This document shows, one piece after another, positions 37,619 through 49,400 of a stretch of DNA of 64,000 nt. The position numbers and the translations under genes were made by a program. Under the pieces are notes generated by a model, which saw only the letters and a list, made by a program, of their open reading frames with translations, was not told the DNA's origin and searched no databases. Position 1 is the stretch's first letter; each line of letters starts with the position of its first letter. The DNA is from Prevotella sp. (lineage in GTDB: Bacteria; Bacteroidota; Bacteroidia; Bacteroidales; Bacteroidaceae): NCBI GenBank assembly GCA_017619375.1, contig JAFZSL010000045.1, forward strand, positions 1 through 64,000, given 5' to 3'.

Positions 37619-37900
37619 TAGTTTCCCATTCCTTCCTCAATTCTTCCATCCTCTTCAACTGTTCCTCCTTGGTCATCCTCGGAGTGCCCCTCATTAGTCG
37701 TTTCTTGCTTTCAACCTTTAGATTTGGAATCTCTTTTCTTATTTTTGGCCTTTATTTTGGTGGATTGTTTGAAAAACACTAATTTTGCATATGTCCTCGA
37801 TGTCATGGAGGGCACAGTGCCAGGAAGGCTCATGCAGGGGGTGAGGCATCATTCATATCCTCTTTACATCCTTCTTCCCAATTTTCAACCCAAACGACAA
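37619..37900. other. spacer with promoter and a minus-strand gene fragment
   Basis: The minus strand at 37608-37755 is open and ends MTKEEQLKRMEELRKEW..., which looks like the C-terminal remnant of a lost gene. The plus strand carries the Sel1 gene promoter at 37756-37787 and a leader of about 105 bases. Confidence 0.5.
37756..37787 (+). promoter_or_regulatory. promoter of Sel1/TonB gene
   Basis: TTTG (37756-37759), 20 bases, TAATTTTG (37780-37787). Full match. It lies inside the long frame starting at 37724, so the true start must be downstream, at 37901. Confidence 0.8.
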
Positions 37901-39106
37901 ATGATGATGAGATATAAATGTATGTTCTTGCTCCTATGGGCAATACCGATCACCCTTTTCTCGCAGGGCACTGCTGGCGAGATGTATGAAACAGGCTTTG
38001 ATTTTCATTATGGCAGAAACGGCAAGGCCAAGGATGATGTAAAAGCAGTGGAGTGGTTTCGCAAGGCTGCAGACCAGGGGGGTGCTGAAGCGCAGGCACA
38101 GATGGGATATATGTATCTATACGGCTATGGAGTGAACAAGGATTTTGCCGAAGCACTTAATTGGTACCGAAAGGCGGCGGAACAGGACGATGCTTCTGCG
38201 CAGAATCAACTTGGGTATATGTATCTAAACGGCTATGGCGTGAACAAGGATTATGCAGAAGCCCTCAAATGGTATCGCAAGGCGGCGGACAAAGGCCTTC
38301 CTTCGGGACAAAACGGCCTTGGGTTCATGGCGCAGAATGGCTATGGCATGAACAAGGATTATGCAGAAGCCTTCAAATGGTATCTTCAAGCGGCGGAGCA
38401 GGGGAATGCCACGGCAAAGAACAACATTGGAACCATGTATTTCAATGGCTATGGAGTGGCCCGGGATTATGCCGAAGCCCTCATGTGGTATCGCCAGGCT
38501 GCGGAGCAAGGCGACCCCAACGGACAATACAGCCTTGGCTTCATGTACGACAACGGATTCGGGGTGGACAAGAACCTGGCAGAGGCAAGGAAATGGTATG
38601 AGAAAGCTGCCGCTCAAGGGGATGAAGATGCCAAGGAAAGGTTGAAGACAATCGAACAAGACTCCGGTGGCACGGTGAAAGTGGACAAGGCGAATGACGT
38701 GGCAGTGGTGGGCGCGGTGTCTGCTCGAAAGGATGCCGTGGATTCAGAACCATCAAGGCAAGCACCCGTTGGCGAACCCGATAATAAGGATGCCGCCGCA
38801 CAAGTGTTGGAAGTGGTGGACGTGCCGCCTGCATTCCCCGGCAATGTCCTTTCGTGGCTGGCTCACAACATACACTATCCTCCCATTGCATGCGAGAAAA
38901 ATATCCAGGGGCGCGTGATAGTGGATTTCATTGTGGAGACTGACGGTTCAGTGAGCAACGTGAAGGTGCTGAAGGGCGTTGACCCGTCGCTTGACAAAGA
39001 GGCCGTACGAGTGGTGAAAACCATGCCTAAATGGGATCCCGGCAAGCAGAATGGACAGCCGGTAAGAGTGAGGAAAAACCTACCCGTGACGTTCAAATTG
39101 AAGTAA
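37901..39106 (+). CDS. Sel1-repeat protein with TonB C-terminal domain
   Basis: A 401-residue exported protein. The signal peptide is MMMRYKCMFLLLWAIPITLF. Next come about six Sel1-like repeats of 36 residues (about 30-250; for example AQMGYMYLYGYGVNKDFAEA), a polar linker (about 255-310) and a TonB C-terminal domain (about 312-401; NIQGRVIVDFIVETDGSVSN, PVTFKLK). Sel1 repeats bind proteins; a TonB-like C-terminus normally contacts outer-membrane receptors or envelope partners. It lies upstream of the FHA/PP2C/RodA-PBP genes but has its own promoter. Confidence 0.88.
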   Translation: MMMRYKCMFLLLWAIPITLFSQGTAGEMYETGFDFHYGRNGKAKDDVKAVEWFRKAADQGGAEAQAQMGYMYLYGYGVNKDFAEALNWYRKAAEQDDASAQNQLGYMYLNGYGVNKDYAEALKWYRKAADKGLPSGQNGLGFMAQNGYGMNKDYAEAFKWYLQAAEQGNATAKNNIGTMYFNGYGVARDYAEALMWYRQAAEQGDPNGQYSLGFMYDNGFGVDKNLAEARKWYEKAAAQGDEDAKERLKTIEQDSGGTVKVDKANDVAVVGAVSARKDAVDSEPSRQAPVGEPDNKDAAAQVLEVVDVPPAFPGNVLSWLAHNIHYPPIACEKNIQGRVIVDFIVETDGSVSNVKVLKGVDPSLDKEAVRVVKTMPKWDPGKQNGQPVRVRKNLPVTFKLK

Positions 39107-39133
39107 ACGATAATCATTATAACCATTCAAGAT

Positions 39134-39280
39134 ATGAGCAACGCATCTTTCGGACAAGACGATGAGTCAAGGAGGGAGGAACTGCTTCGAAGCATCGAAC
39201 ATGCCTTGCAGAAACTGACCCTGCAGGAGTTGGAGGCCATCTATTACGACATGTCTACCAAAAACTACATCAATGACTGA
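39134..39280 (+). CDS. small acidic protein, 48 aa
   Basis: A 48-residue frame from ATG 39134: N-terminus MSNASFGQDDESRREELLRS, core IEHALQKLTLQELEAIYYDM. It is helical with a regular Leu pattern. It begins 27 bases after the Sel1/TonB gene on the same strand, suggesting co-transcription. No family recognised. Clean composition and position make it a likely real gene. Confidence 0.6.
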   Translation: MSNASFGQDDESRREELLRSIEHALQKLTLQELEAIYYDMSTKNYIND

Positions 39281-39644
39281 CTCTACTAACAAAAGTTGTT
39301 GAAATAAACGGAGTTGTCGAAGTCGTTTAGTAGTTAACGTAGTTATCGCTTCGCTCGAAGTTAACGACTAAACTTTTCTCATCCACGGTGCGCACAAGTG
39401 GAAAAGGGATTCCTACAGTGTTTCCCCGGCGTAACGCTGTGTGCAACGTGCCATTCGCAGGACTAATGTCTTTTTAACTTCTCTAACTTCAAAACTCCGA
39501 GTTTTTACATCGAAAACTCCCCAAAGACAATAAGCCATATTTTTCCCATTGGACCTCAAAAAAACAAACAGAAAGGTTGCTTTGGTCGTTTTTTTTTGTA
39601 ATTTTGTCACACCATAATAATTTAATGACAAAAAACATTTCATA
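39281..39644. other. spacer with microrepeat fragment and -7 element
   Basis: Contains GGACTAATGTCTTTTTAACTTC (the head of the microrepeat element, 39460-39481) and TAATTTTG at 39599-39606, a likely -7 element for the FHA gene; the -33 is poor (TTTG at 13-base spacing). A Thr/Ala-like GTTAACGACTAAACTT palindromic stretch near 39330-39375 is AT-rich and non-coding. Confidence 0.5.
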
Positions 39645-40610
39645 ATGGCTTCATTATTTGATAAGTTCAAACAAATGGTCTTTGGGCATTCCATACTCAC
39701 CCCTCGTGTCTTGCAATCACACATCATTGAAAATTTCAAGGAGGGGAAGAAAGAAAGTTCATTGTTGCACCATGTGTATTATCCCACTTCTTTCATCATC
39801 TTTCTTGAGAGCAGTGACTTTGAGAGGCTGAAGCAGCATTTCCCAGGCATCTTTAGCGATACTGTCGACGAATTTGTCAGATTGTTGGCCAATGAAATAT
39901 CCGATGGGAATTACATCCCCCATTCAAGAAAATGGCGCTTCCAGTTCATCAAGGTCACAGAGGGCATGCTTTTCCAAGGTAATGCCATCAACCTGCCTTC
40001 GGGCAATGTGCTCATCGTTAGTACGCTTTATCCAAAAGGGGAGGAGCCGAAAGGGACCAATACGGTTGTGGTGACAAGGACCAAGGATGGTACGATGGGC
40101 AGAAGCTTTGAAATCAACCCGGAATTGCTGAATGATATTTCAGAAAAAGGCGAGTTCATCTATGAAAGAAAACTCATCGTTATTCCACAAGGAGGCGGAA
40201 ATGATTCTAACGTTGGAATGCAAAAGCCGTCCAAAGCCTCTCTGACCTTCATCTCCAATGGCACTTTCATCGGAGGCATGAAGAGCATCGGTCTGTTCGA
40301 GCCAAAAGTGATGGTGTGTGGGAAGAGTGGGATTCCGGGTGCAGGCATACAAATCGTGCATATGGACGACGTCATGGTCAACAATCCTCATTTCATCATC
40401 TATGAGAACACTTATGACGGAACTTTCACCATAGAAGCCAAAGCCGGCTTGACATTGAATGGCAAAAACATTACAGGTTCCTCGGAAATGCTTCCCGATG
40501 GTTCCCTGATCGTCGTTGCCAACAAGTATCAACTCCGCTTTTCCGTGATTCAAAAAAACACTGAGGGGAATTTCTTCTCCATGTTGATTTCAAAAATCTT
40601 TTCCAAGTAA
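39645..40610 (+). CDS. FhaA-like protein: DUF3662-like N-terminus plus FHA-like domain
   Basis: A 321-residue cytoplasmic protein. The N-terminal 115 residues follow the pattern of the FhaA N-terminal domain (DUF3662): an amphipathic start, YYPTSFIIFLESSDFERLK, VDEFVRLLANEI, then WRFQFIKVTEG. The C-terminal part (about 225-310: VMVCGKSGIPGAGIQ, MVNNPHFIIYENTYDGTFTI, LTLNGKNITGS, LPDGSLIVVANKYQLRF) has the strand order of an FHA domain but lacks a clear GR...SxxH set, so phosphothreonine binding is uncertain. It is first in the run with PP2C, RodA-PBP and a second FHA gene. In Mycobacterium, FhaA binds the wall-synthesis regulator MviN. The assignment rests on pattern and context. Confidence 0.68.
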   Translation: MASLFDKFKQMVFGHSILTPRVLQSHIIENFKEGKKESSLLHHVYYPTSFIIFLESSDFERLKQHFPGIFSDTVDEFVRLLANEISDGNYIPHSRKWRFQFIKVTEGMLFQGNAINLPSGNVLIVSTLYPKGEEPKGTNTVVVTRTKDGTMGRSFEINPELLNDISEKGEFIYERKLIVIPQGGGNDSNVGMQKPSKASLTFISNGTFIGGMKSIGLFEPKVMVCGKSGIPGAGIQIVHMDDVMVNNPHFIIYENTYDGTFTIEAKAGLTLNGKNITGSSEMLPDGSLIVVANKYQLRFSVIQKNTEGNFFSMLISKIFSK

Positions 40611-40651
40611 ACAAAAGGAATCCAAGAGACTCCGTCATCTCTGGGAAAAAC

Positions 40652-41743
40652 ATGAAACCTGGAACAATCCTTATGAAACAATCCTCAATGAAGAACATGT
40701 TCGACGCACTCACTCACCGGGGAATGGTGAGGGACAACAATGAAGATTGTTGGATGGCACAGACGATATGGAATGACTCCTTTCTGTTGTGTGGCGTCAT
40801 TGATGGCATGGGGGGCTACGAAGGAGGAGAAGTGGCTGCCGAGATTGCCAGGACAACCATCATCGACGAGGTCGTAACGCATGAGGCGGCTGACAACATC
40901 CTCATGGTGCTCGAGGCTGCTGTGGTGAAAGCCAACAATGCCATCGTCGAACACAAGATGAAACACGCCGATGTGGGTCACATGGGCTGCGTGGCTACTG
41001 TGGGCATCCTCGATTTGAACGAGAACCAACTCTTTCTCGCACATGTGGGCGACACCCGACTTTACCAGTTTCATCAAAACGTGTTGCAGAAACTGACTTT
41101 CGACCACTCCATCGTAGGACAAAAAGAGGATTCGGGGGTGCTCACGGAAGAGGAAGCCATGAGCGACCCTGAAAGGAACATCGTCACCAAGAGCCTCGGC
41201 TTCGAGAGGCTTGCCGTACACGATGCCGACTATTTGGATTTGGGCGTCTTCCCCCTCCAGCCAGGCACGCAGTTGCTGTTTTGTTCCGACGGATTGTATG
41301 ACATGGTCACCTCACGCGAAATCTCTTCCGTCTTGCAGCAGGAAACAGGGGTGCATGAGAAAAGCAGGCAACTCATTGACTTGGCTAACGAGTGTGGAGG
41401 GAAGGATAATGTCACGGTGGTGCTGGTTCAACTCTTTCAGTCGGATTCTTCAAATGAAGGCGATGCGACAACGGTGCCGACCGAGGGTGCAGAACGTACT
41501 TCGAAGGAACTCGATACGGCAAGGGAGGATGCTGAGGAAAAGCATTGTTCGCCGAAGGTGGGAGAGGAGGCTGAGGCGAATGTCAATGGGGATGAAAAAA
41601 AGAATGATGATGACGTGCTTCCTCAAGCTCGGAAGGGCTGGCGGCATGTCAAGACGGGAAGAGGGCTCTTGGCCCTCGTCGCAATCGTGGCGTTTGCCCT
41701 CGGCGTGCTCGTCGGCTATTTGCTGAAAGTGTTTGTCTTTTAA
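40652..41743 (+). CDS. PP2C-family Ser/Thr phosphatase with C-terminal membrane anchor (PstP-like)
   Basis: A 363-residue protein. The PP2C domain (about 15-255) has all metal-site motifs: RDNNEDCW, VIDGMGGYEGGE, GCVATVGIL, AHVGDTRLYQF, LLFCSDGLYDMV and GGKDNVTVVLV. A polar, acidic linker (260-335) leads to one transmembrane helix (LLALVAIVAFALGVLVGYLL, about 340-360) at the very end. The catalytic domain therefore faces the cytoplasm, as in mycobacterial PstP. It precedes the RodA-PBP gene by 5 bases. Starts at 40652, 40673 or 40688 are possible. No partner kinase is seen in this window. Confidence 0.92.
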   Translation: MKPGTILMKQSSMKNMFDALTHRGMVRDNNEDCWMAQTIWNDSFLLCGVIDGMGGYEGGEVAAEIARTTIIDEVVTHEAADNILMVLEAAVVKANNAIVEHKMKHADVGHMGCVATVGILDLNENQLFLAHVGDTRLYQFHQNVLQKLTFDHSIVGQKEDSGVLTEEEAMSDPERNIVTKSLGFERLAVHDADYLDLGVFPLQPGTQLLFCSDGLYDMVTSREISSVLQQETGVHEKSRQLIDLANECGGKDNVTVVLVQLFQSDSSNEGDATTVPTEGAERTSKELDTAREDAEEKHCSPKVGEEAEANVNGDEKKNDDDVLPQARKGWRHVKTGRGLLALVAIVAFALGVLVGYLLKVFVF

Positions 41744-41748
41744 TTTAA

Positions 41749-44700
41749 TTGTCAGAGAATATGAAAAAGGATTTCATATGCTTGGTAATCATCACGGTGC
41801 TGACGGCGTTGGGAGCCTTGAAACTGTATGACAACCAAAAGGACTATCTCGACGAGGTGGAGCAGAAATACCAGGAGGGGATGTCCTTGAACCTGGATGG
41901 CTCGGTAACCAAGGAAGCCCTCTCCGACTTGTTGGAAAAATACAATTACATCGAGGAGAAAACGGAATGTGACTATGTGGCAGACCTTCTCGTGGACAGC
42001 ATCCTTCAGAAAAGTGGCAGCCTGCCCAACCTGGGAGAACTCAACCAATCCCGACATTGCATCCCCGAGCGTTTGATAGTCGGGCACGAGAAGGAATGTC
42101 CCGGATTGGCCAAGCGTTTGGAGGCGGCCTATAGGGCATTGGGCGTAGACGATGAGGTGAAAGGTCTTTACGAGAAGAAACCGTCCTTCAACCAAGGATA
42201 TGGCGATGTAACCCTGAACGTGAAGGTGGAGAACGGGAAAGGTGAGACCGGTTCCCTGGAAGGCATACTGGTAAGGCTGAGGAAACATACCGTAGACACC
42301 ATCAACAGTGAAATCGAAGTGTTGGAGAATGTCACCTATCAGTGGACGGACGCTGAAGGGAAGGCGTCGTTCAAGGTGTCTGCAGATTCTTGCTACAGCG
42401 TGTTCCCCATCAGGCAGGGCTATGAGTACGGGGCGGCTAAAGGAACAAGAAACGGAAAGCCTTTCACTGAAGGGCAGACCCTTGCGTTCAAGCAAAAAGA
42501 GAACAAAATCAGAATCCTGGACAATTTCACCTTCCGCAACATCAAGGAAGACAACGCGATGACGGTGAGGACACCGGCGGAGTACAAGAGTTCCTTGTTC
42601 TCCTCCGTCGCCTTCGTCCTTTTCGCTTGGTGGGTCGCCTATTTCTTGCTCAAATACATGGATAGGAAGAGAAACAAAGGTGAGAAGCATGGCATCGGCA
42701 CCATCTACGGGCTGAAGGCTTCATCCGACTATATGCTCTTCGTGATTCTCATGGCCATCAACAGCATATGCATACTTGTCACCTTCGGCATCTGCGACCC
42801 GTTGAAGGACATGCCCAATGGAGTCACCATGAGTGGCGGGACCGTGGCGGGCATCGTGGCCATGTGTGCCATGGCAAGCATCAATTACGTGAAATTCAGA
42901 AACAACAAGAGCAAGGCCCAGATGGGATTCATACACTTCGACTTCATCATGCAACCGTTGCGCTGGGTGGGGAAGAAATGCAATTCCAAGGTGCTCGACA
43001 AAGTGCCAGATGGATTCGGCTACTTGCTGGTGGCCCTATTCTTTGTCATCTTGCTCAGGCTGTTTGGCACAGGCCCCGAGGGCAGTGATGCGCACGTCAA
43101 CCTCTTCTTCTTCCAACCCAGCGAGTTGTCCAAATACTTCATCGTGATATTCATTGCCGCGTTCTTCGCCAGCAATGCCGACAGGATACGTGATTTCTCC
43201 ACCGACATCAAATACCTGAAGCCACAAATGAGGACCGTCCTTTTCGTGGCGGTGGCCATCGTCTTGCTGATGGGGATGTATCTCTTCCTGATCAGCGACA
43301 TGGGACCTGCCTTGGTCATCCTGGTCACTTTCATACTCCTCTATTCCGTGGCACGACAGGACCTGATACAACTGGTGACAGGCGTGGTCACCTTCTTCAT
43401 CGTGATGGCCGCCAGCATGGTGCTGGCTTCCTTCATGGGGGAGATGGGTGGTTTCCTGGTGAAGGTGTTCCTGCCATTGCTTTGGTTTGTCGCATGGATA
43501 CTTTATTTCTGGAAAGCGAAGCGCAAAATCTATGAGAGTGCCATCTTCCTCAACCTGCTCTTCTACATGTTCAGTTTCGCCGGCACCGTATTCAGCACAT
43601 TCAACCTGCCGGGAGGACAGCGGTTGGCCAACAGGATGGCGATGTATGGCTCAGGGGTCTGGGACAACGCCGTCGGTGGAGGCGACCAAGTGGCACAAGG
43701 CATCTGGGGGCTTGCTTCCGGTGGATGGACCGGGCAGGGATTGGGACGTGGCAATGCGAACTTCATACCGGCATTCCATACGGACATGGTGCTGGAAAGC
43801 GTGGGGGAAATCCTGGGCTTCTTTGCACTGCTCTTCATCATTGCTTGCTTCTTCTTCCTCATTTACAGGTCGCTGCTGCTGGCAAGGAAGGCGGCACACC
43901 CCTTCCTCTTCTTCACCATCTCAGGCATTGCATTGGTGACACTCGTCCAGTTCTTGGTCATCCTCATGGGAAGCCTCGGCCTCATTCCGCTCACCGGCGT
44001 GGCCGTGCCTTTCCTCAGTTTCGGCAGGGCCAGTCTCATCATCAACCTGGCGGCCTTCGGCATCGTCATCTCCATGTCTCGCTACCAACCCCAAAAGGAG
44101 CAGATAGAGCATGTCAAGGCCTACGACAACGTGTTGGTGGCGGGCATGTGTTCATTCTTGGCCATCTCGTGCTGCATCATCTGCGTCTTGTTGTATTATC
44201 AGAAAATCAAGCAGGACGAGTATCTCGTCAAGCCAGCTGCCATAGCAGATTCCGGCGGTAGGCGTTATCTGGAATACAATCCACGCATCTCCCAACTGCT
44301 GAAACATTTGAAGCAGGGCGACATCTATGACCGCAACGGAGTGGTGCTGGCCACCACCGACCCTGCCATCATCACCGGGCAACTTGACACGTTGAGCGGC
44401 AGTGGACTCCGAAGGAGTGACATGCAGGACTTGGCCAAAAAGCATTCCAAGAGGTATTATCCTTTCGGCGACGACCTTTTCTTCATGCTGGGCAATTACA
44501 ACACCAAGATGTTGTGGGGCAACACTGACCATGCCAACTATCAGGTTGGGTATTTCGCTGAAGAGCGACACTTCTCTGATTTGAGAGGATTTGACAACAA
44601 AGGAGAAAAAGTGGCACTTGTCAGCAAGAAATTCCAACAGTCGCCTTACCTGCCGCCTATTGAAATCCAGGACAGCGTGGTCAAGAGAAATTACAAAATC

Positions 44701-46014
44701 GACGTCATCATGGCTGGACTCAAAAAAGGAGTGGACTGCAAGGAGGTGAAAGAATGGAACAGCCAGAAAAATGTTGAACAACGGAAACTGGTCCTTACCG
44801 TCGACGCTGCATTGCAGAAGAGAATGCGTGAAGGCCTGAGGGAAAAAGTGCGTGAACTGGGTAAGAAATACGAAGGCGTGGACTCTTTCTACTTGCGCGC
44901 ATCGGTTGTCGTCCTCGATGCCAACCATGGCGATTTGCTTTGCTCGGCCAGTTGGCCTATGGCGGACCAAAGCCTGATGAAGGACATGATGAAGACGTCG
45001 CCCAACATCACCTACAGGGAAACAAAGGGACAAATGGCTTTTGCCGACCGTGACTTGGGGACGACGTTCCAGACCCCTCCAGGTTCAACGGCCAAAACCG
45101 TCTCTGCCATGGCGGCGTTCATGAGGGATGGAGAGGCGGCGCAGGATATTCGCATCTCATATCTGAGTGGCGAGGGCGTTGATTCGCAAGACAGAAAGAA
45201 TGCAGGAACACATTCCATCAAGTCTGCGCTGGAAAAATCTCTCAACCCCTTCTTTGTCAAATTGGTGAATCAAGGCGATGGACTATACAAGGAACTCAAC
45301 AAAATCTATTATGCCGTGGGCATTGGTGTCATGATGACCAAGAAGGAAGACAAAAAGGCTGCCGCCTTCGACGAGGATTTGTTGAAGAAAGCGCCCTACA
45401 AGTGTTTCACACCTTATTATTTCATGAAGCAGCAGCCTGCCGCTTCTCAAACCGAATTCAATCAAGTGATGAAAGTGAGGGAACAACTGGCACTGAGTGA
45501 ATATCGGAGAATCATGAAATTGCCCAATAGGGTGAAGTTGAACAACACCTTCTTTGCCATGCCGTGGGGGCAAGGCGCCATGAGGGCCACCCCGCTGAAC
45601 ATGGCAAGGGCTTATTCCGCCATTGTCAACAAAGGCAACTATGTTCCTACAAGATATACGATGAATGAGAATGTCAAACCCGTCAAATTGTTGGATGAGG
45701 GTTCTGCCAGCATGTTATGGCAAGACCTTATAAGTGCCAGTGGGTTGTCCGAATTCGGAAAAATCGATTTCGGTGGCAAGACAGGGACACCGGAGCGTGG
45801 GGCATCAAAAACGATTTTCACCAACAGGGTGGGGGATAAGAGAGACAGGAAGAATGATTCCTGGTATGCTTTCGTGGTCAAATCAAGCAAAGGCACCAAC
45901 CTCGCTGTCGCCCTCAGGATAGAAAGGACCAAACGAACTTCCACGGAGGCAAAGGCTTGGGTGCGTGACATGGTCATGCCCGTCTTGAAGGAAACCGGAT
46001 ATGTCAATTATTAA
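41749..46014 (+). CDS. RodA/FtsW-penicillin-binding protein fusion
   Basis: A 1421-residue bifunctional peptidoglycan synthase. TM1 (about 8-24); an extracytoplasmic region of about 255 residues including a beta-rich part (TLNVKVENGKGETGS...TDAEGKASFKV); TM near 283-302; a SEDS (RodA/FtsW) domain of about ten helices (320-835) with FQPSELSK (455-462), LISDMGPALVIL, GLASGGWTGQGLGRGNANF and the catalytic-site Asp679 in FHTD, and LIPLTGVAVPFLSFGRAS (745-762); then a periplasmic transpeptidase (about 870-1421) with IYDRNGVVLA, Ser1113-T-A-Lys1116, Ser1164-L-Asn1166 and Lys1344-Thr-Gly. No PASTA repeats. Normally SEDS and class B PBP are separate partners; here they are one chain. The start could be ATG 41761. 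Confidence 0.95.
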   Translation: MSENMKKDFICLVIITVLTALGALKLYDNQKDYLDEVEQKYQEGMSLNLDGSVTKEALSDLLEKYNYIEEKTECDYVADLLVDSILQKSGSLPNLGELNQSRHCIPERLIVGHEKECPGLAKRLEAAYRALGVDDEVKGLYEKKPSFNQGYGDVTLNVKVENGKGETGSLEGILVRLRKHTVDTINSEIEVLENVTYQWTDAEGKASFKVSADSCYSVFPIRQGYEYGAAKGTRNGKPFTEGQTLAFKQKENKIRILDNFTFRNIKEDNAMTVRTPAEYKSSLFSSVAFVLFAWWVAYFLLKYMDRKRNKGEKHGIGTIYGLKASSDYMLFVILMAINSICILVTFGICDPLKDMPNGVTMSGGTVAGIVAMCAMASINYVKFRNNKSKAQMGFIHFDFIMQPLRWVGKKCNSKVLDKVPDGFGYLLVALFFVILLRLFGTGPEGSDAHVNLFFFQPSELSKYFIVIFIAAFFASNADRIRDFSTDIKYLKPQMRTVLFVAVAIVLLMGMYLFLISDMGPALVILVTFILLYSVARQDLIQLVTGVVTFFIVMAASMVLASFMGEMGGFLVKVFLPLLWFVAWILYFWKAKRKIYESAIFLNLLFYMFSFAGTVFSTFNLPGGQRLANRMAMYGSGVWDNAVGGGDQVAQGIWGLASGGWTGQGLGRGNANFIPAFHTDMVLESVGEILGFFALLFIIACFFFLIYRSLLLARKAAHPFLFFTISGIALVTLVQFLVILMGSLGLIPLTGVAVPFLSFGRASLIINLAAFGIVISMSRYQPQKEQIEHVKAYDNVLVAGMCSFLAISCCIICVLLYYQKIKQDEYLVKPAAIADSGGRRYLEYNPRISQLLKHLKQGDIYDRNGVVLATTDPAIITGQLDTLSGSGLRRSDMQDLAKKHSKRYYPFGDDLFFMLGNYNTKMLWGNTDHANYQVGYFAEERHFSDLRGFDNKGEKVALVSKKFQQSPYLPPIEIQDSVVKRNYKIDVIMAGLKKGVDCKEVKEWNSQKNVEQRKLVLTVDAALQKRMREGLREKVRELGKKYEGVDSFYLRASVVVLDANHGDLLCSASWPMADQSLMKDMMKTSPNITYRETKGQMAFADRDLGTTFQTPPGSTAKTVSAMAAFMRDGEAAQDIRISYLSGEGVDSQDRKNAGTHSIKSALEKSLNPFFVKLVNQGDGLYKELNKIYYAVGIGVMMTKKEDKKAAAFDEDLLKKAPYKCFTPYYFMKQQPAASQTEFNQVMKVREQLALSEYRRIMKLPNRVKLNNTFFAMPWGQGAMRATPLNMARAYSAIVNKGNYVPTRYTMNENVKPVKLLDEGSASMLWQDLISASGLSEFGKIDFGGKTGTPERGASKTIFTNRVGDKRDRKNDSWYAFVVKSSKGTNLAVALRIERTKRTSTEAKAWVRDMVMPVLKETGYVNY

Positions 46015-46043
46015 AATCATAAAAAAACAGAAGATACGACAAG

Positions 46044-46748
46044 ATGACAAATTTGGAATTACGGCACGAGTGCCTGGATATCATCGTGGAGGAGTTGGAC
46101 AAGGTCGATTTGACACTGCAAACCCGTCTGTGGATTGCAGACGATTGCTTCGATGCCATTTTCGACACCTCTTATACGAGCGAGGCCATGGTGAAAGACA
46201 TCGTGCGCGAACTACAAAACAAAGGCAATGAGACGGGGGGATTTCGTTTGGTCATCGACCGGGGCGCTCCACCTGCCGAGGCATCTGCCAAGGCCATCAA
46301 GGATGACTCCATCTTTTTGGCCCAGGTCGTCACTGGCAATGCCGTGGTGGAGCCCATACCCTCCAGGGGAAGTTTTTATCGGCAGTCATACACTTTGGCA
46401 TTGAAAAACGGAATGGTGTACAACATCGGGCGTGGCGTAACACCCGTGATTCCCGGTGTCTTGAGGGAGAACTACATTGCCATCAAGAATGCGGATGATG
46501 AAACAGACCCTTCGTTGAGGGAGGTCAACTCCTATGTCAGCAGGGACCATGCGGACATCAGGGTGGTCAACGGGAGTTTCTATCTCCATTCCACAAAGAT
46601 AGGTCGCACAAAAATCATACGTGATGAACCCGGCTATGGCCAAAGAGTAATTAGAATCATGAATGATATGACATTCGAACAGTTGAAAGACAATGACATC
46701 ATCGTTCTGGGAAGTATGTTCATGATGAGGTTCCGACTCTGTAAATAA
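46044..46748 (+). CDS. FHA-domain protein
   Basis: A 234-residue cytoplasmic protein. The N-terminal 85 residues are helical (IIVEELDKVDLTLQTRLWIAD...SEAMVKDIVREL) and of no known family; the FHA domain covers about 110-234. FHA hallmarks: the Gly-Arg pair in YNIGRG, Ser-Arg-x-His in YVSRDHAD, and the C-terminal strand LKDNDIIVLGSMFMMRFRL. It lies 29 bases after the RodA-PBP gene. FHA domains bind phosphothreonine, which implies that a Thr kinase acts on this complex. Comparable to actinobacterial FhaB by context. Confidence 0.85.
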   Translation: MTNLELRHECLDIIVEELDKVDLTLQTRLWIADDCFDAIFDTSYTSEAMVKDIVRELQNKGNETGGFRLVIDRGAPPAEASAKAIKDDSIFLAQVVTGNAVVEPIPSRGSFYRQSYTLALKNGMVYNIGRGVTPVIPGVLRENYIAIKNADDETDPSLREVNSYVSRDHADIRVVNGSFYLHSTKIGRTKIIRDEPGYGQRVIRIMNDMTFEQLKDNDIIVLGSMFMMRFRLCK

Positions 46749-46871: not shown

Positions 46872-49400
46872 ATGAAAACGAGAAGCATCATTGCCGGCAT
46901 TTTGCTATGTATGGCATCGGCCATGCCGGCACAGGAGTTCAAACTCAACAAGGAAGGCTATTTCAATAGTGGAGGAGTGGATGTCATGGCGTTCAGCGAC
47001 TTCTATCCTGAAGGACATCAGGGTGGGGTGTGCGTCATCATGAACGGAAAACGTGTCGCCACCAATGGTGACATCAGGCTGGAAGCCACGCCGGGACAAT
47101 GGCAACCCGTGCCAAAACAGTTGGGAAGGAAGGTGGAGGCCAACAGCATCGTCACGACGCTGGCCTATCCAGACTCCTCACGTCACGAGACTGGCTTCAA
47201 TCCCATGACCTATCCTGATTACGTATTCAATTATGAGGTCAGGTTGGAGGCACAGGGGAAGAGCTTGGTGGTGACTGTCGACATGGACAAGCCCGTGCCT
47301 GACTTCCTCTTGGGGAAGGTGGGCTTCAATCTGGAATTCTACCCGGGGGAGTTGTTTGGCAAGCCATGGCTGATGGATGACCAGACGGGCATCTATCCAC
47401 AACAACCCAACACACCTCTGGAAATCACTAAGCCCAACAACCTGCATACTGGCGACTTCTTCACCGGGAAAGGACAGCGGGCGGACATACGCCACCTCAA
47501 TGCACAAGGATACAGTCCGCTGGTGGCCGACGACGTCATAGCGGCTCCCTATGCGGTAGGAAGGGTCTTTGTCTCGCGTCCCGACGACCCGTATGCCAAA
47601 CTGACCATCGAGTCGCAGACGGGGAATCTCAAACTGTATGATGGACGCATGAACCACAACAACGGATGGTTCGTCCTGCGTAGCGAGATACAACCCGGGG
47701 TGACCAAAGGGGCGGTGAAATGGGTCATCACTCCCCATGTGGTGGAGTCCTGGAGGTATCAGCCTGTCATCCAAACCTCGCAGGTGGGCTACATGCCCGG
47801 TCAGGAGAAGAGAGCCGTCATCGAGACCGACAAGAGGGATGGCCTCGTGACTGCCGCCACCATTGTCAGGGTGGATGCCGACGGGGAGAAGGTGGTGAAG
47901 ACGCTGCAACCCAAGGAGTGGGGGGAGTTCCTGCGCTACAAATACCTCATTGCCGACTTCTCCGACATCGTCACGCCGGGACTCTATCAGGTGAGGTATG
48001 GGGATTCTGCTTCCTCCATCTTCCGCATCGCAGAGGATGTCTATGACCGAGGGGTGTGGCAACCTGTGGTGGAGTATTTCCTGCCTGTGCAGATGTGCCA
48101 CATGAGGGTCAGCGAGAAATACCGCATCTGGCACGATGCATGCCATATGGACGACGCATTGATGGCTCCTGTGGGAAATCATATCGACGGCTATGCCCAA
48201 AGCCCGGGCATCAGTCCCTACAAGGCTGGTGACCGTGTGCCGGGTGTCAATGTGGGAGGATGGCACGACGCCGGAGACTTCGATTTGAGGGTGGAGTCGC
48301 AGGCGGGAGAGGCATACATCCTCGCCCTGGCCTATGAGGAGTTCAAACCCGAAATCGACGTGACCGCCATTCAACAGCAACAGCACAAAGTGGAGATTCA
48401 CGAGCCGGATGGGAAAAACGACATCCTGCAACAAGTGGAGAATGGCGCACTGACGGTGGTGAGGTCCTACCAAGCCCTCGGCAGGCTATACAGGGGCATC
48501 ATCTGCAACAACCTCAGGCAATATGCATTGTTGGGCGACGCTGCAGCCATGACCGATGGCGTGCCTGGCAACGACGACGACCGTTGGATCTTCACGGAAG
48601 ACAACCCCATGAGGAGCATCAGCACGGCGGCGCAGTTGTCGGGAGCGGCAAGGGTGCTGAAAGATTTCAATCCCCAACTCAGCAAAGAGTGCATCGATAT
48701 CGCCACCACCATCTTCCACCAGCCTTTGGGCAACCCGATGATGGAAGGCATGAAATGCCAGGCGGCGGTGGAACTCTATCTCACCACGGAGGACAAGGAA
48801 TACCTGGATTTCATACTCGACCGTCAAGACATGGTTGTCCGCCAGGTCGGTCGTGGAGGATGGTATGTCGCACGCCTTGCCAAGCGCTTGGAAACGAGCA
48901 AGGACGCCAAGGCCAAAAAGTTTGTCAAGGCTTTCAAGGAGGCGCTTGTTGGCTATGCCGCTGATTTGGAGAAGCGGGCGGAGGAGACACCTTATGGCGT
49001 GCCCTACAAACCCAGCATCTGGGGGGCGGGATGGGACATCCAACGCTTCGGGTTCGAATATTATTTCCTTACCAAGGCTTATCCCGACATATTCCCCAAG
49101 CATACTGTATATAACGCGCTCAATTTCGTGCTGGGATGCCATCCGGGGAGCAACACGGCTTCCTTTGCATCGGGAGTGGGGGCGAAATCGGCTACCGTGG
49201 CGTATGGACTCAATCGTGCCGACTGGTCGTACATCCCTGGAGGCGTGGTGTCGGGAACGGCACTCATCAGACCTGACTTCCCGGAACTGCTTTCTTTCCC
49301 CTTCCTCTGGCAACAAACTGAATACGTGCTGGGAGGAGGGTCGTCTCACTATATGTTCCTCGTTCTGGCGGCGCAAAAACTGACAGGCTTGGGGAGCTAA
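46872..49400 (+). CDS. glycoside hydrolase family 9 endoglucanase, secreted
   Basis: An 842-residue enzyme. Signal peptide 1-20 (MASAMPAQ). A beta-rich N-terminal region (25-290), then an Ig-like CelD_N domain (about 300-385: IQTSQVGYMPGQEKRAVI) and the (alpha/alpha)6 GH9 barrel (390-842). Catalytic Asp466 and Asp469 are in GGWHDAGDFD and the acid Glu817 in WQQTEYVLGG. Ser/Gly motif CHPGSNTASFASGVG fits the family's NPxxxSFVTG loop. Acts on beta-1,4-glucans. It lies 123 bases after the FHA gene with no clear promoter between; joint transcription is possible but not shown. Confidence 0.93.
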   Translation: MKTRSIIAGILLCMASAMPAQEFKLNKEGYFNSGGVDVMAFSDFYPEGHQGGVCVIMNGKRVATNGDIRLEATPGQWQPVPKQLGRKVEANSIVTTLAYPDSSRHETGFNPMTYPDYVFNYEVRLEAQGKSLVVTVDMDKPVPDFLLGKVGFNLEFYPGELFGKPWLMDDQTGIYPQQPNTPLEITKPNNLHTGDFFTGKGQRADIRHLNAQGYSPLVADDVIAAPYAVGRVFVSRPDDPYAKLTIESQTGNLKLYDGRMNHNNGWFVLRSEIQPGVTKGAVKWVITPHVVESWRYQPVIQTSQVGYMPGQEKRAVIETDKRDGLVTAATIVRVDADGEKVVKTLQPKEWGEFLRYKYLIADFSDIVTPGLYQVRYGDSASSIFRIAEDVYDRGVWQPVVEYFLPVQMCHMRVSEKYRIWHDACHMDDALMAPVGNHIDGYAQSPGISPYKAGDRVPGVNVGGWHDAGDFDLRVESQAGEAYILALAYEEFKPEIDVTAIQQQQHKVEIHEPDGKNDILQQVENGALTVVRSYQALGRLYRGIICNNLRQYALLGDAAAMTDGVPGNDDDRWIFTEDNPMRSISTAAQLSGAARVLKDFNPQLSKECIDIATTIFHQPLGNPMMEGMKCQAAVELYLTTEDKEYLDFILDRQDMVVRQVGRGGWYVARLAKRLETSKDAKAKKFVKAFKEALVGYAADLEKRAEETPYGVPYKPSIWGAGWDIQRFGFEYYFLTKAYPDIFPKHTVYNALNFVLGCHPGSNTASFASGVGAKSATVAYGLNRADWSYIPGGVVSGTALIRPDFPELLSFPFLWQQTEYVLGGGSSHYMFLVLAAQKLTGLGS

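Follow-up and report, generated by a model that had tools for sequence, protein, structure and literature searches.

Here we describe a run of four genes in the genome of a rumen-type Prevotella, in which a RodA-like SEDS half and a class B penicillin-binding protein (PBP) half are fused in one chain and accompanied by two FHA genes and a PP2C-type phosphatase gene. The run lies in the window, by which we mean the whole stretch of 64,000 nucleotides analysed (contig JAFZSL010000045.1 of assembly GCA_017619375.1). It is rather probable that the run represents an accessory, third SEDS-class B PBP synthase of Bacteroidota, which shares part of its ancestry with the actinobacterial wall cluster and would be controlled by phosphorylation. 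The four open reading frames (ORFs) are all intact, with 41, 5 and 29 bases between them:

39645..40610, + strand: FHA1 (FhaA-like), ORF of 321 amino acids, with an N-terminal FhaA_N-like domain at about 39651-39908 and a degenerate C-terminal FHA domain at about 40308-40544
40652..41743, + strand: PP2C Ser/Thr phosphatase, ORF of 363 amino acids
41749..46014, + strand: RodA-PBP fusion, ORF of 1421 amino acids, with a transmembrane helix and then a region at about 41830-42594 (between the first and second helices, taken as extracytoplasmic), the SEDS domain at about 42991-44118 and the transpeptidase domain at 44902-45954
46044..46748, + strand: FHA2, ORF of 234 amino acids, with an N-terminal domain of its own and a C-terminal FHA domain at about 46401-46745 carrying GR130 and S166xxH169

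These four genes had been named in this order, and their host taken for a Bacteroidete, in a sequence-only reading of the window. Both statements are borne out: the genes are exact ORFs, of which the PP2C, SEDS and transpeptidase parts are confirmed by Pfam and the FHA parts through relatives, and the closest named relative found for the window genome (G000, an assembly of 4.26 Mb with a completeness of 99.98 and a contamination of 0.13, in which the window lies on contig C61) is Prevotella sp. RGIG6036, a metagenome-assembled genome from sheep omasum. In Pfam the fusion matches FTSW_RODA_SPOVE (1e-37) and Transpeptidase (5.5e-17) on a single chain, and its N-terminal 334 residues have no match. 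The catalytic residue of SEDS proteins is an aspartate, which is kept in all 21 aligned fusions (counted without L170, L171 and L172), as HTD in 20 and as NTD in L041. The SxxK, SxN and KTG motifs of the transpeptidase are likewise found in 21 of 21, and all are present in the window. The phosphatase matches Pfam PP2C at 1.7e-12 and NCBIfam Stp1 at 2.5e-59, the latter yet below its cut-off, and hydropathy places a C-terminal transmembrane helix at residues 339-357. Among its relatives, all 16 sequences compared keep the aspartate metal-site motifs, the neighbouring residues varying slightly, and of 15 unfused PP2C proteins 13 have one predicted transmembrane helix. In one locus, L075, Pfam confirms PP2C, SEDS and transpeptidase as one chain of 1384 amino acids, and here phosphatase and synthase are thus physically linked. 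In another, L074, residues 170-215 of the fusion match a carboxypeptidase regulatory-like domain (1.7e-11), possibly a binding or sensing domain.

The fusion comes on top of the ordinary wall synthases. Separate RodA-like and FtsW-like SEDS genes with matching transpeptidases are found in all eight carrier genomes examined, and those of G000 sit on contig C11. Hence the wall cluster proposed at first stands as a synthase with FHA and PP2C genes, but not in a housekeeping role, since the carriers have separate RodA and FtsW and most same-genus relatives lack the cluster; the cluster fusion is an additional synthase of sparse occurrence. In the family, three of 151 sampled genomes have a full-length relative of the fusion, and the other 139 with a match have far weaker ones (E 1e-17 or above among the matches listed), in the SEDS part. 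By alignment at E 1e-60, with two candidates scored per genome, the fusion is detected at genus level in 4 of 299 genomes, at order level in 2 of 393 and at phylum level in 15 of 395; these counts are minimum values because the samples overlap and the threshold is strict, and diverged members may be missed.

Altogether 24 fusion loci were compared. Their ORFs were classified by profiles built from members, and a gene is called absent when no matching ORF of at least 110 amino acids (at least 100 in some loci) is present in the stretch examined. FHA1 is found in 23 loci, FHA2 in 22 and PP2C in 19, and finding FHA1 beside the fusion in 23 of 24 is more than chance. Members outside profile building (FHA1 of L074 and L072, FHA2 of L074 and L075) match at 3e-34 or better. 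The order FHA1-PP2C-fusion-FHA2, whose absence from related genomes would have spoken against the sequence-only reading, in fact recurs across the phylum: it is found with no other module gene between in 12 loci (the window, L009, L170, L062, L065, L066, L067, L068, L069, L070, L074 and L075, the last with a single polypeptide for PP2C and fusion). Two kinase genes stand between PP2C and fusion in L063, L064 and L077, while L040 has the order FHA1-PP2C-fusion-kinase-FHA2 and L172 FHA1-PP2C-fusion-kinase. The remaining loci are FHA1-fusion-FHA2 in L071-L073, rearranged in L041 (also without PP2C), L046 and L171, and reduced in L076 to a fusion without FHA1, FHA2 and PP2C. L171 (G1124:C15) is a second, different cluster copy in one assembly, which has 10% contamination, and it may belong to another organism.

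The cluster is also carried by a plasmid. In Spirosoma oryzicola, plasmid NZ_CP089545 has an annotated row of FHA, PP2C, kinase, kinase, FtsW/RodA and FHA genes, and it is the only one of 81 matching plasmid records with at least 80% query coverage. Spirosoma is counted here with Bacteroidia, because of its place in the tree together with L063 and L064 (100/98); in NCBI it is listed under Cytophagia. In addition, the cluster SEDS of G570 and G804, two genomes of one family, branch at separate places in the tree. The scattered carriers, the plasmid copy and this separation together point to horizontal transfer. When plasmids were searched with a distant FHA1, a single FHA match came up, in Brasilonema.

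The ancestry of the module was studied first of all on the SEDS half. In an unrooted maximum likelihood tree of 48 rows, all 24 cluster sequences fall together (100/100), with the pstP-cluster RodA of Actinomyces, Tsukamurella and Nonomuraea as the nearest group (100/99), and stand apart from Bacteroidota RodA (8 sequences), Bacteroidota FtsW (8), actinobacterial FtsW (2), enterobacterial RodA/FtsW and SpoVE. L169, apparently the same contig as L009, and Microbacterium, with split FtsW annotations, were left out of the trees. In the transpeptidase tree (46 rows, six of odd composition) the cluster is again one group. A second line of evidence comes from FHA1. By hhalign, the FHA1 family matches three actinobacterial FhaA end to end (probability 95.9, E 6e-9) and its N domain alone matches FhaA with probability 81.8 (E 1.1e-5), as against probabilities of 0.07-1.4% in four control pairs. 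FhaA_N in the window FHA1 itself is below the Pfam cut-off (E 0.17). When five carrier genomes are searched whole for FhaA_N, the cluster gene comes top in G571 (25.7 bits, over the cut-off), G567 and G716, is the second of two weak matches in G000, and is not among the matches in G804. On the basis of the tree and the profile comparisons, the RodA half and FHA1 appear to share ancestors with their counterparts in the actinobacterial cluster.

FHA domains in the window genes score below the curated Pfam cut-off (E 0.2 for FHA1 and 0.01 for FHA2), so that the assignment is carried by relatives. Ten FHA1 and FHA2 proteins scanned against the cut-off of 20.7 bits give three above it (Spirosoma FHA1 with 22.2, L065 FHA2 with 24.1 and L071 FHA1 with 47.5 bits), four below it and three without FHA; a further scan gives 35.8 bits for L075 FHA1. 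Profiles of 18 FHA1 and 17 FHA2 sequences (L072 left out of the latter) match solved FHA domains in the PDB, both with 6ar0, at E 8.8e-6 and 0.0014 respectively, and four-sequence profiles of FHA1 and FHA2 have no FHA match there. GR and SxxH form the phosphothreonine pocket signature of FHA domains. Among 18 sequences each (without L170, L171 and L172), FHA2 has the Arg in 17, the Ser in 18 and the His in 18, while FHA1 has the His and a later Asn in all 18 and a variable Arg and Ser. FHA2 of the window keeps GR and SxxH; in FHA1, L009 reads GR and SNPH and L170 reads GK and SNPH. As judged from these residues, only FHA2, not FHA1, retains the phosphothreonine signature in the window.

Concerning the kinase, the sequence-only reading had seen none in the window and had suggested looking for a Hanks-type partner in related genomes. 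Such genes, one or more, are found in 16 of 18 Bacteroidia loci, and none is seen at the loci of the window and L170. Hydropathy predicts at least one transmembrane helix for 22 of the 24 cluster kinases examined in this way, and one kinase, in L062, bears an FHA domain by Pfam. Among the six outer-class loci only L076 has a kinase ORF, about 4 kb from the fusion. In L009, the fusion of which has 80% identity to that of the window, the counterpart of the window's Sel1-TonB gene and FHA1 are separated by a kinase gene, the product of which has a transmembrane helix and a TPM domain. A tblastn search of the window with this kinase (E up to 10) gives no credible match and no remnant at 39107-39644, and the two kinases of G000 detected by PF00069 are both on other contigs, C8 and C45. 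The window and L170 are sisters in the SEDS tree (99/91) with L009 outside, and the transpeptidase tree does not resolve the three. Because most Bacteroidia loci have kinases, it is simpler to assume that the common ancestor of the window and L170 lost the gene, though L009 may instead have gained its kinase.

The two kinases of G000 were compared with that of L009. The C8 kinase, which has an FGE-sulfatase domain, shows 38% identity over 291 residues; the C45 kinase, which has Sel1 repeats, shows 55% over 297 residues in the kinase domain, and its tail looks FHA-like by eye, although Pfam lists no FHA there. Kinase domains of the C45 type (52-72% identity) were sought in 40 same-genus genomes, namely 36 picked from 100 for high completeness and four carriers, and were found only in G000, G974 and G1124, which are the three genomes with window-type clusters. 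G974 has 14 such places in about 12 genes, one being the cluster kinase, and G1124 has nine in about eight genes, two of them at 47-48%. In three of the other 37 genomes the matches are weaker (43-48%), and in one of these three they are confined to Sel1 repeats; G1212, which carries a different cluster accompanied by a kinase of its own, has no C45-type match. As side observations, one Hanks-kinase family is thus much expanded in G974 and G1124 in comparison with the single gene in G000, G974 has 23 kinase matches in total, and three or four Hanks kinases lie close together in G956:C136, G1019:C98, G995:C63 and G957:C95 of the same genus.

From these data we infer a joint function of the four genes. 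The fusion would polymerise lipid II with its SEDS half and cross-link the strand with its transpeptidase half in one chain, and such a natural fusion is plausible because engineered RodA-PBP2 fusions of Escherichia coli are active, as stated in the parts of PMC6207328 and PMC10449877 that deal with them. Threonines on the synthase or on its partner proteins would be phosphorylated by a Ser/Thr kinase, the gene of which lies within the locus in most relatives among the Bacteroidia and most likely elsewhere in G000 (the C45 kinase). By binding to these phosphothreonines FHA2 would assemble or switch the synthase, PP2C at the membrane would remove the phosphate again, and FHA1 of the window would mainly be a phospho-independent scaffold. 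In this scheme the genes with their homology, conservation and co-location and the catalytic and pocket residues are what was observed; the phosphorylation, the binding, the switching, the identity of the kinase and the condition of use are what we infer.

The nearest known system is the actinobacterial fhaA-fhaB-pstP-rodA-pbpA-pknA-pknB cluster (sections of PMC6554272 and PMC11898655), seen for comparison in Actinomyces oris L090 and Tsukamurella L091. According to the relevant passages of PMC6554272, the linkage of pstP, rodA, pbpA and kinase is a conserved feature of Actinobacteria, and that of pknB with fhaA occurs in a subset of Firmicutes. The Bacteroidota module is like this cluster in having an FhaA-like gene, a second FHA gene, a PP2C and a class B PBP in similar order, in its RodA, which is nearest in the tree, and in the Hanks kinases of most Bacteroidia members; the membrane anchor of the window PP2C is what one expects of the phosphatase in that cluster. 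However, the Bacteroidota module differs in the fusion of RodA with PBP, in a PBP half outside the PbpA clade, in being extra to the housekeeping synthases, in kinases that are often absent or elsewhere and lack PASTA in those scanned, in the degraded FHA1 pocket of the window and in a different FHA2 N-terminal domain. Firmicutes pknB loci with fhaA or PP2C are similar by description, bringing together a kinase, a PP2C and in a subset FhaA (as far as the text of PMC6554272 goes); Monoglobus L176 has PP2C-pknB only, and neither this region nor one of Acetoanaerobium contributed anything more to the comparison. Compared with the engineered fusions of E. coli, which likewise put SEDS and class B PBP in one chain, the Bacteroidota one is natural and has an extra N-terminal region and regulatory neighbours. 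The housekeeping RodA-PBP2 and FtsW-FtsI pairs of Bacteroidota have the same chemistry, but belong to different clades, are unfused and lie elsewhere in the same genomes.

Several points weigh against an accessory synthase of partly actinobacterial ancestry under phospho-control. As to ancestry, PbpA joins PbpB and FtsI (95/83) and not the cluster PBP half, which does not support a wholesale common cluster. The actinobacterial reference consists of three clusters, and the SEDS tree contains one FtsW row on a long branch and L075 with odd composition. Three deep-branching FHA1 taken alone match FhaA_N with a probability of 12% (E 0.0025), and the FHA1 profile finds one of three actinobacterial FhaA, at E 0.045. 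As to phospho-control, the window FHA1 has Lys or Gly (by alignment) for the pocket Arg and Asn for the Ser, reading GK and NNPH. There is no kinase in the window and none seen in its sister L170, the stretch of which ends 280 bases past FHA2, and none among the ORFs classified in the outer-class loci L071-L075. Pfam scans of 14 out of 27 cluster kinases show no PASTA domain. Moreover, the sharing of C45-type kinases by G000, G974 and G1124 may be explained by close kinship as well as by function, and the assemblies G974 and G1124 are 7% and 10% contaminated. The resemblance to the actinobacterial cluster claimed at first thus holds for the RodA half by the tree and for FHA1 by hhalign, while the PBP half does not group with PbpA and the kinases scanned lack PASTA.

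These last points are also the ground on which a convergent assembly may be argued, that is, FHA, PP2C, SEDS and PBP are common families which were joined independently in Bacteroidota. The ungrouped PBP half and the 14 kinases without PASTA agree with this, as do the results for FHA2, the N-terminal domain of which has no match with FhaA_N (1.4%) and which matches FhaB weakly (5.6%). But convergence accounts poorly for a SEDS half whose nearest group is the RodA of the actinobacterial cluster, and for an FHA1 that matches FhaA over its whole length and, in distant members, FhaA_N by Pfam. We therefore take it to be unlikely, although it is the strongest of the alternatives.

Another explanation is that the run is a decaying remnant: the lineage leading to the window and L170 would have lost the kinase, and the remaining genes would be drifting without function. 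Here the ratio of nonsynonymous to synonymous differences (pN/pS) bears on the question, though the ratios are rough because synonymous differences are near saturation (pS 0.44-0.56). Between the window and L170, the kinase-less pair, pN/pS is 0.35 for FHA1, 0.38 for PP2C, 0.18 for the fusion and 0.21 for FHA2. The two values against L009 are 0.40 and 0.40, 0.33 and 0.30, 0.23 and 0.23, and 0.21 and 0.26 in the same order, and two flanking control genes compared between the window and L009 give 0.13 and 0.20. By these ratios the four-gene run is under purifying selection, with FHA1 and PP2C looser than the rest. Decay would fit the kinase that is present in L009 and not seen in the window and L170, and the FHA1 pocket, in which L009 keeps both Arg and Ser, L170 keeps the Ser with a Lys, and the window has lost both. 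It would also fit PP2C, the only gene with a higher ratio in the kinase-less pair than against L009, and the fact that, except for the fusion between the window and L170, all ratios lie above both controls or equal the upper one. However, the four frames and the catalytic motifs are intact, and pN/pS is well below 1 throughout and lower or equal in the kinase-less pair for FHA1, the fusion and FHA2, which makes decay quite improbable.

Two further explanations fare worse. A spare duplicate of the housekeeping RodA-PBP2 with ordinary function, the FHA and PP2C genes being incidental neighbours, would belong to the same enzymatic families, but the trees part the cluster from the genome's own RodA, FtsW, PBP2 and FtsI, the neighbours are kept across classes, and in L075 PP2C is even fused to the synthase; we give this very little weight. 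A defence or conflict island of kinase, FHA and phosphatase, in which the wall enzyme would be the target or the effector, would suit the sparse spread, the plasmid copy and the PADLOC matches for the L009 kinase (35 families) and PP2C (PDC-M21C, 3.4e-9), but these are kinase and phosphatase models, taken as generic to these families, PADLOC has no match for FHA1, FHA2 or the fusion, the core genes match no nuclease or protease family of Pfam, and on the PADLOC results this hardly credible reading was set aside.

The surroundings of the run are as follows:

37724..39106, + strand: Sel1-repeat and TonB_C protein, which adjoins the run; it is uncertain whether it is a cluster member
39107..39644, + strand: gap, the place of the Hanks-type kinase gene in the near relative L009
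39576..39606, + strand: possible Bacteroidota-type promoter of the run, read by eye as GTTG, 19 bases, TAATTTTG

The product of the Sel1-TonB gene has six Sel1 repeats followed by a C-terminal TonB domain, and the gene adjoins the run in the window, L009 and L170; as a separate gene it is found only in the window among 11 fusion loci compared for it, the profile sources L009 and L170 not being among them. Its profile also matches the Sel1-bearing C45 kinase of G000. Between this gene and FHA1 there is an ORF of 48 codons at 39134-39280. The promoter was read against TTTG-N17-21-TANNTTTG, the Bacteroidota consensus, and it has a single mismatch to the -33 consensus. It is a weak candidate, because it is not among the matches of an exact-pattern search of the window; that pattern occurs at 12 places in the window against 0.81 expected. 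Downstream of the run, at 46872-49400, lies a family 9 glycoside hydrolase, which keeps this place in L009 and is likely a neighbour rather than a part.

We found no earlier description of this cluster in Bacteroidota in literature searches of open-licence papers. As far as the consulted sections of these sources go, the linkage of FHA, phosphatase, kinase and wall synthase has been described for Actinobacteria and partly for Firmicutes, and a related module is now seen in a Gram-negative phylum. A natural fusion of polymerase and cross-linker, once together with the phosphatase, would offer a one-polypeptide system for studying the phospho-switching of a SEDS synthase. More tentatively, and as something we hold possible rather than expected, the module may be a horizontally moving, phosphorylation-switched third synthase, kin to the actinobacterial cluster and kept in reserve next to the Rod and division machineries for a special wall or condition, from which in the window the kinase has left the locus and FHA1 has turned from a reader into a scaffold. 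The accessory synthase thus raises the question why bacteria that have RodA, PBP2, FtsW and FtsI would keep and exchange a third one.

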